A stretch of DNA of 64,000 nt from Bacteroidota bacterium (GTDB lineage Bacteria; Bacteroidota; Bacteroidia; Chitinophagales; Chitinophagaceae): the NCBI GenBank assembly GCA_029561255.1, contig JAKQJH010000134.1:1-64000 (forward strand). The letters are read 5' to 3'. The translations under genes were made by a program, and so were the position numbers. Under the pieces are notes generated by a model that was not told the origin of the DNA, ran no database searches, and was given only the letters and a program-made list of their open reading frames with translations. The number at the start of each line of letters is the position of its first letter. Positions within the stretch are counted from its first letter, which is position 1. Positions 1,696 through 33,266 of the stretch are shown piece after piece.

Positions 1696-1977
1696 CTTGC
1701 GGACCGGATCCCGAATCGGTTCGGGACGACCTCCGCCGTGACAGGTACACGCCATAGACATAAAAAAAGCTCCACATTTTTGTGAAGCTTTTTTCTTGCG
1801 GATCGGATCCCGAATCGTTTCGGGACGACCTCCGCCGTGACAGGTACACGCCATAGACATAAAAAAAGCTTCACATTTTTGTGAAGCTTTTTTCTTGCGG
1901 ACCGGATCCCGAATCGGTTCGGGACGACCTCCGCCGTGACAGGGCACAAAAAAAGCTTCACATTTCTGTGAAGCTTT
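1696..1977 (-). repeat. Tandem array of three tRNA-Asp-3'-derived units (99, 99 and 84 bp: 1696-1794, 1795-1893, 1894-1977)
   Basis: Each unit contains CTTGCGGAYCGGA + TCCCGAATCGKTTCGGGA + CGACCTCCGCCGTGACAG, followed by a terminator-like hairpin AAGCTYCACA-TTTY-TGTGAAGCTT. The unit flanks are identical to tRNA-Asp sequence. Confidence 0.95.
1953..1976 (-). terminator. Rho-independent terminator of tRNA-Asp
   Basis: AAGCTTCACA TTTC TGTGAAGCTT with a T-tract on the minus strand; near-identical copies at 1866-1889 and 1767-1790. Confidence 0.8.
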
Positions 1978-31246: not shown

Positions 31247-31259
31247 AATACGCTGTTTG

Positions 31260-31330
31260 CACGGGCAGAGAGATTCGAACTCCCATCAACGGTTTTGGAG
31301 ACCGCTATTCTGCCATTGAACTATGCCCGT
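31260..31330 (-). tRNA. tRNA-Trp (CCA)
   Basis: ACGGGCATAGTTCAATGGCAGAATAGCGGTCTCCAAAACCGTTGATGGGAGTTCGAATCTCTCTGCCCGTG; anticodon loop CTCCAAA. Confidence 0.96.
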
Positions 31331-31349
31331 TTTTAATACTTTATTTTAA

Positions 31350-31456
31350 GAACTCCCATCAATCCCGGAGGTCCGGGACTATTCTGCCATTGAATGCTGA
31401 CGAAGCTGCGCTTGTCCGCATCCCGACAGGCTTTGCCTCGTCGGGACTATGCCCGT
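31350..31456 (-). pseudogene. Degenerate tRNA-Trp copy carrying three palindromic cassettes
   Basis: Segments identical to tRNA-Trp (GAACTCCCATCAA, CTATTCTGCCATTGAA, CTATGCCCGT) separated by TCCCGGAGGTCCGGGA (31363-31378), TGCTGACGAAGCTGCGCTTGTCCGCA (31395-31420) and TCCCGACAGGCTTTGCCTCGTCGGGA (31421-31446). Confidence 0.93.
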
Positions 31457-32933: not shown

Positions 32934-32985
32934 CAGACCTCTTCTCCCGTACCTACGGGATGCTCCACCACTGAGCTACAACGGC
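32934..32985 (-). pseudogene. Degenerate tRNA-Thr 5'-part copy with anticodon arm replaced by a palindrome
   Basis: CAGACCTCTTC + TCCCGTACCTACGGGA (32945-32960) + TGCTCCACCACTGAGCTACAACGGC; flanks match tRNA-Thr(GGT) including the downstream TTCTT. Confidence 0.93.
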
Positions 32986-33157: not shown

Positions 33158-33266
33158 CCCACCGAAGCTTTAGCGAAGGTGGGTTTGTTTCTAAGAACTT
33201 TTTATGATGTCCTACTTCACCGAAGCTAGGTAGGACGCTTCCCTCTTTCGCTAAAGCTATAGAGGG
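33158..33266. repeat. Three consecutive hairpins with different stems and a shared core
   Basis: CCCACC-GAAGCTTTAGCGAA-GGTGGG (33158-33183); GTCCTAC-TTCACCGAAGCTAG-GTAGGAC (33209-33236); CCCTCT-TTCGCTAAAGCTAT-AGAGGG (33241-33266). Confidence 0.9.

Follow-up and report, generated by a model that had tools for sequence, protein, structure and literature searches.

tRNA genes serve as targets for integrases and for genomic islands, which insert there, restore the tRNA and leave a fragment of it behind. In T-even phages, the free-standing GIY-YIG enzyme SegB is encoded among tRNA genes, has homology between the 3′ terminus of its gene and a tRNA 5′ end, and drives the tandem amplification of the nuclease-tRNA segment (PMC13096335). 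Back-to-back hairpins are described as small dispersed elements in mitochondria, namely the double-hairpin or repetitive hairpin-forming elements (PMC2800124). Here we set beside these systems a broken tRNA-Trp copy from the window, i.e., the whole 64,000-nt stretch of a Chitinophagaceae contig (JAKQJH010000134.1) that was analysed, along with related structures from across its phylum. On balance, we favor reading this locus as an ORF-less derivative of a class of tRNA-embedded, homing-type GIY-YIG elements widespread in Bacteroidota. More tentatively, we propose that these constitute apparently undescribed, phylum-wide selfish elements, in which a minimal, isotype-specialized nuclease of 80 aa would home into tRNA genes, rebuild a working tRNA and leave a half that is disabled by hairpins from small mobile palindrome families. 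The part of the literature that we covered (on GIY-YIG nucleases and Bacteroidetes tRNA genes, on UPF0213 and on truncated or partial tRNAs) yielded no description of such elements.

The broken tRNA-Trp copy lies directly upstream, in the sense of transcription, of the intact gene and ends within the T arm. The features of the locus are as follows:

31259..31330, minus strand: intact tRNA-Trp (CCA), the regenerated functional copy (ARAGORN; Rfam RF00005, 66.4 bits)
31331..31349, minus strand: 19-nt A/T-rich spacer TTAAAATAAAGTATTAAAA, the boundary between leftover and intact tRNA-Trp (by alignment to empty-site relatives)
31350..31362, minus strand: leftover copy, tRNA-Trp positions 42-54 (TTGATGGGAGTTC); the remaining T arm and the acceptor are missing
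31363..31378, minus strand: third hairpin, TCCCGGACCTCCGGGA, substituted for the 15-nt anticodon arm
31379..31394, minus strand: leftover copy, tRNA-Trp positions 11-26, beginning TTCAATGGCAG
31395..31420, minus strand: hairpin H2, TGCGGACAAGCGCAGCTTCGTCAGCA
31421..31446, minus strand: hairpin H1, TCCCGACGAGGCAAAGCCTGTCGGGA
31447..31456, minus strand: leftover copy, tRNA-Trp positions 1-10, ACGGGCATAG
31331..31456, minus strand: the whole 126-nt insertion relative to the empty-site loci L017 and L018 (by alignment)

A sequence-only reading of this locus had proposed that two self-contained hairpins with 7-bp stems, the second with one mismatch, are inserted back to back at a single point of a tRNA-Trp copy. 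Indeed, the order on the minus strand is ACGGGCATAG, TCCCGACGAGGCAAAGCCTGTCGGGA, TGCGGACAAGCGCAGCTTCGTCAGCA, TTCAATGGCAG, with the junction between tRNA-Trp positions 10 and 11 of the broken copy, and both hairpins fold as 7 bp, a 1-nt bulge, 4 bp and a 3-nt loop, with the one mismatch in H2. H2 and the reverse complement of H1 both conform to the design stem-AxGC-NNN-GCxT-C-GTC-stem; hence, they form an inverted pair from one family. The hairpins are real, but the overall event is a partial duplication of the tRNA rather than the dropping of hairpins into a normal copy. Likewise, the claim that no target duplication is visible stands for the hairpin junction inside the copy and fails for the entire 31331-31456 stretch, which duplicates part of the tRNA. 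The third hairpin TCCCGGACCTCCGGGA, the common architecture of H1 and H2, the unity of the 126-nt insertion and the homologous twins of two relatives described below all go beyond that reading.

Our comparison set for the region comprised 80 named nusG-region loci, mostly from Chitinophagaceae, and the gene order tRNA-Thr-Tyr-Gly-Thr-tuf-Trp-secE-nusG is common to the close relatives. The empty-site alleles that the earlier reading had suggested looking for in the tuf/tRNA-Trp/secE spacer were found in the nearest relatives L017 and L018 (NusG 95 and 94% identical), where the second tRNA-Trp copy is absent and TGACTTTTGATTCTT leads directly into the intact tRNA-Trp; hence, the window holds one 126-nt insertion. 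The site is also filled in L019 and the congener G018, whose tRNA-Trp leftovers are shorter and hold, at the same position of the tRNA, twin hairpins that are homologous but diverged. At the tRNA-Ala site of this genome the spacing is 374 nt, as against 141-171 nt in relatives. In L019 (7600-7779) the leftover Trp half has ACGGGCATA and the intact tRNA ACGGGTATA, i.e., two different tRNA-Trp alleles, and the tRNA-Ala(GGC) of this genome is unlike that of most syntenic congeners and the same as that of more distant ones (L407-L416, L421-L424, L405). At most, these differences suggest that an element-borne allele has replaced the host tRNA, at Ala here and at Trp in L019. Separately, the leader of rplK, the probable gene after nusG, has a hairpin whose sequence varies by species while keeping its TCCCG..CGGGA ends (L041, L054, L057, L062, L094, L017), and a conserved hairpin of the tuf-Trp spacer likewise has a variable tip.

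The earlier reading had also suggested a search of the genome for both hairpins in other contexts. H1 itself occurs once in the genome, and the window has no further match to H1 or H2 with up to 3 mismatches (0 expected by chance); related twins, however, are dispersed at five non-tRNA sites of the congener G001 (L425, L429, L431, L432, L433). The G001 repeat consists of identical twins, TCCCGACGAAGCGAAGCTTGTCGGGA and TGCTGACCAAAGCGTCAGCA, within conserved flanks (gacgatgaagag ... tgcgacgcaac), with imperfect direct repeats such as GACGATGA on either side. No GIY-YIG ORF was found within about 1.5 kb of these dispersed twins; hence, the spread of the hairpins is possibly a process of its own, and their mobility may be a second process, separate from the GIY-YIG element. 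A link between the two is the locus L335, in which a tRNA-Leu is followed by a terminator, an intact GIY-YIG ORF and then a 3′ leftover carrying a twin hairpin that enters the T loop of the tRNA-Leu copy cleanly, at CAGG^TTCGATTCC. The first member of this twin and H1 have an 18-nt core, GACGAGGCAAAGCCTGTC, in common, while their outer stems differ by paired changes. The twins of the window, L335 and G001 have the core and the architecture in common, and twins from five genomes preserve their pairing by two-sided changes (CCC/GGG vs GCT/AGC). On grounds of anatomy and of this sequence match, the Trp locus is tied to the GIY-YIG class.

Partial copies of the same anatomy accompany five other tRNAs of this genome, Thr and Asp within the window and Ala, Arg and Asn elsewhere; those in the window are:

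32934..32985, minus strand: tRNA-Thr(GGT) 5′ half, with hairpin TCCCGTAGGTACGGGA (32945-32960) substituting for the greater part of the anticodon arm, followed by GAAGAGGTCTG; also present in L018
1700..1945, minus strand: three tandem 3′-half copies of tRNA-Asp, with stretches of a hairpin plus a T run between the copies
1907-1924, 1808-1825 and 1709-1726, minus strand: T arm of tRNA-Asp replaced by TCCCGAACCGATTCGGGA or TCCCGAAACGATTCGGGA

A second hairpin family is seen in the tRNA-Tyr/Gly spacer (33160-33265, minus strand), where three hairpins have a core like TAGCTTYRGYGAA and differing stems. Outside the window, the genome has a GIY-YIG ORF, with a stop, at its tRNA-Ala, and another that adjoins the tRNA-Asn copy at a contig end.

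Thus, the phenomenon is real and larger than two hairpins at a tRNA-Trp. The typical change turns GAGCN-[anticodon arm]-AGGT into GAGCN-TCCCG...CGGGA-AGGT. Sampling within the phylum Bacteroidota, we recovered this pattern at 75 places in 42 of 396 genomes and 36 of 171 genera, with a single match for the reversed control. Systematic comparison revealed 230 partial copies next to intact tRNAs, and in 170 of them a stretch of 9 nt or more is inserted. These counts, and those of the inserts below, describe the class and not genome-wide rates since the loci were partly chosen by pattern or ORF match. Among the nusG loci, which were picked irrespective of any ORF, such a copy is found at only 12 of 348 tRNAs. 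There are 160 distinct inserts of 10-60 nt, and for 123 of them no more than 2% of shuffled versions of the same insert fold equally well; 91 are situated in the anticodon arm, mostly as replacements, 40 in the T arm and 23 in the D arm, and 41 are clean insertions that cost the tRNA no more than 1 nt. The arm ends TCCCG..CGGGA recur in 62 of these inserts (of about 150 hairpins), and about two thirds of the perfect TCCCG hairpins in 1.08 Mb of Chitinophagaceae loci are in or near partial tRNA copies. The partial copies display an asymmetry: the 5′ end of the tRNA is kept in the upstream ones (78:1) and the 3′ end in the downstream ones (104:5), with a Fisher p of 1e-45 that is nominal, as related loci and tandem copies were counted separately. 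This argues for insertion into a tRNA gene with one tRNA being rebuilt, and not for the decay of tandem duplicates. The pattern of a tRNA with a hairpin in the anticodon arm is also seen in 66 viral contigs (L339-L404), mostly without a GIY-YIG ORF.

A small ORF (about 80-90 aa) coding for a GIY-YIG protein often separates the intact tRNA from the leftover half, with L217 (Ala), L241 (Val) and L335 (Leu) among the examples. A partial tRNA copy is found at 89 of the 105 loci with a tRNA-adjacent ORF, and an inserted stretch at 77, as against the 12 of 348 tRNAs in the nusG loci. For the family represented in this genome, which is present in 71 of 118 genomes, a tRNA on the same strand adjoins the ORF in 63 of 70 fetched loci and one on the opposite strand in none. 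In several loci of the upstream type, the end of the ORF overlaps the 5′ end of the tRNA by about 10 or 23 nt, such that its stop codon lies inside the tRNA. The proteins of this class match PF01541 with E-values of 1e-15 to 1e-17, and Y5, Y16, G18, R26, H30, E62 and K66 are invariant among 20 diverse members. The catalytic domain occupies about residues 1-72 of these 80-90 aa proteins, leaving little beyond it and no separate DNA-binding region for site recognition. With a median pairwise dN/dS of 0.11 (21 pairs, many of them non-independent tandem copies from few loci), the ORF is under purifying selection. A tree of the nucleases groups them by tRNA isotype, with 20 changes as against 27.7 for shuffled labels (0 of 200 shuffles as low). 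The same tree sets the tRNA-associated side (80-86 aa) apart from a UPF0213-like side (92-111 aa), of whose members 2 of 42 are beside tRNAs, the root split being weakly supported. In a sample of 61 genomes, all 7 with the hairpin pattern have at least 7 GIY-YIG genes (p = 7e-5, with kinship ignored); the present genome, which has the pattern, five GIY-YIG matches and an incomplete assembly, was excluded from this test. Plasmids and annotated phages have practically no copies of the nuclease. The Trp copy of the window has no GIY-YIG ORF, and none was seen beside any tRNA-Trp that we met. In L214 of genome G091, from a species with 25 GIY-YIG matches, eight tandem GIY-YIG ORFs are spaced by ~364 nt, and no tRNA was detected in the part that was fetched.

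What we observe is the anatomy of the loci, their empty sites, the asymmetric ends, the strand bias of the ORF and the purifying selection on it, the tracking of isotypes and the dispersed twin; the cleavage, the homing and the role and acquisition of the hairpins are inferred, along the following lines. In its full form the element is a free-standing GIY-YIG gene on the strand of the tRNA, flanked by the intact tRNA and the leftover tRNA half. The nuclease would cut a tRNA gene, whereupon repair would use an element-bearing copy as its template, with the shared tRNA halves serving as the homology, and would so insert the element. One intact tRNA would always be rebuilt, with the other half staying behind, and repeated rounds could give rise to tandem arrays. 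Hairpins, which belong to small recurrent families, of which the twin is also a dispersed repeat outside tRNA genes, replace or enter the arms of the leftover half and break it up, thereby probably blocking its folding as a tRNA, its processing or its re-cutting. The ORF-less Trp copy of the window would formerly have had a nuclease. By analogy with SegB of the T-even phages, a homing-type process is the most likely one. Several observations count against this reading: the regenerated tRNA has an ordinary anticodon arm, so that self-cleavage of the donor would be expected; the Trp locus of the window has no ORF and none was seen beside any tRNA-Trp; the C-terminal DNA-binding region is absent; and the G001 twins have no ORF nearby.

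One alternative is close to the sequence-only reading, wherein a stand-alone palindromic unit inserts cleanly by a single-strand mechanism that favors tRNA-like or hairpin-rich DNA, with the GIY-YIG ORF being an independent passenger. The recurrence of clean insertions at several tRNA positions (41/160), the five G001 twins outside tRNA genes and the core and architecture that these have in common with L335 and the window are all in keeping with it, and to this extent the suggestion of a hairpin-mediated insertion endures. However, it leaves the asymmetry of the ends unexplained, most inserts are replacements, above all in the anticodon arm (91/160), and the concentration of about two thirds of the perfect TCCCG hairpins near partial tRNA copies is not random; we hence consider it unlikely. 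The other half of that suggestion, single-strand transposition, is without support because the Y1/RAYT transposase is absent from several genomes with the same structures and two RAYT loci of this genome have different hairpins. A mobilization of REP elements by this transposase, with H1 and H2 as a REPIN-like inverted pair, would account for the bulged inverted-pair architecture, and this genome has six PF01797 matches. The Bacteroidetes RAYT subclass 2.6 is reportedly flanked by atypical structures (PMC6006769), which would also be in line with it. Nevertheless, PF01797 is missing from G067 and G039, each of which has 3 hairpin tRNA copies, and from the congener G008, which also has the structures; the hairpins that flank two of the RAYT loci here are different ones, CCCCGGGTTGGCACCCGGGG or CCCCTGGTTTCACCAGGGG, and the RAYT loci examined yielded neither the H1/H2-type repeat nor the G001 twin repeat. 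RAYT/Y1 as a necessary cause is largely ruled out by these PF01797-free genomes and the differing hairpins, and we give this explanation very little credence. In one of the RAYT loci (L434, on contig C121 of this genome), two tandem RAYT genes are flanked by repeated CCCCGGGTTGGCACCCGGGG hairpins.

It is also conceivable that tRNA genes were duplicated in tandem in the ordinary way and then decayed neutrally, the hairpins being products of chance or of palindrome-correcting mutation. Tandem arrays do exist, with eight copies in L038, and leftover halves often match the intact gene exactly, as after a recent duplication. Such decay is quite improbable in the face of the 78:1 and 104:5 asymmetry of the ends, the same TCCCG..CGGGA arm ends across the phylum and the strand-locked GIY-YIG ORF. 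Snap-back synthesis was set aside because the hairpin arms do not appear to be copied from the flanking tRNA sequence, and a tyrosine-recombinase integrative element does not fit, as the units contain a GIY-YIG ORF or no ORF and both 5′ and 3′ fragments occur. Lastly, the leftover copy might be a selected RNA structure of the tRNA transcript, functioning as a signal for processing or termination. The two-sided changes that keep the pairing of the twins in five genomes would fit such a function, as would the fact that hairpin tips vary also in the conserved tuf-Trp spacer hairpin and the rplK leader; yet the closest relatives L017 and L018 entirely lack the copy, and it occurs at only 12 of the 348 tRNAs of nusG loci, leaving this a very unlikely explanation.

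If the homing-type reading is true, hundreds of annotated "GIY-YIG nuclease family proteins" of Bacteroidota would gain a role as parasites of tRNA genes, and the partial tRNA copies of these genomes would be insertion scars. The elements would moreover offer a test system for how a homing enzyme with only a catalytic domain locates tRNA genes while its host survives, and the swap of a tRNA arm for a hairpin is an odd mutational pattern needing a mechanism of its own. These elements apparently inhabit tRNA genes without destroying them and are seemingly of an undescribed kind.

Among known systems, the parallels to SegB are that at several loci the ORF runs into the 5′ end of the tRNA and that tandem arrays occur; the differences are the residence in bacterial chromosomes, the proteins with hardly more than a catalytic domain, the hairpin-bearing tRNA halves and the many isotypes involved. 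Known GIY-YIG homing enzymes have a C-terminal DNA-binding region, unlike the tRNA-associated proteins described here; with this recognition domain missing and the nuclease activity only predicted, we do not class them as free-standing GIY-YIG homing elements despite the like parts. By sequence, their closest solved structures are those of the UPF0213/YhbQ and SLX1 proteins, namely UPF0213 BH0048 (1zg2, E 1e-8), 1ywl and then SLX1 (7cq2), but UPF0213-like nucleases (92-111 aa) are rarely beside tRNAs, unlike the 80-86 aa side. REPINs and BIMEs resemble the twins in being short intergenic inverted pairs of bulged hairpins, whereas the hairpins here sit in tRNA copies and do not require a RAYT. 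The mitochondrial double-hairpin elements likewise have hairpins back to back, and differ from the present ones, which are bacterial and linked to partial tRNA copies and a nuclease. In comparison to the tRNA-targeting islands, there is no tyrosine recombinase here, the unit is only about 70-400 bp and the fragment left behind carries hairpins.
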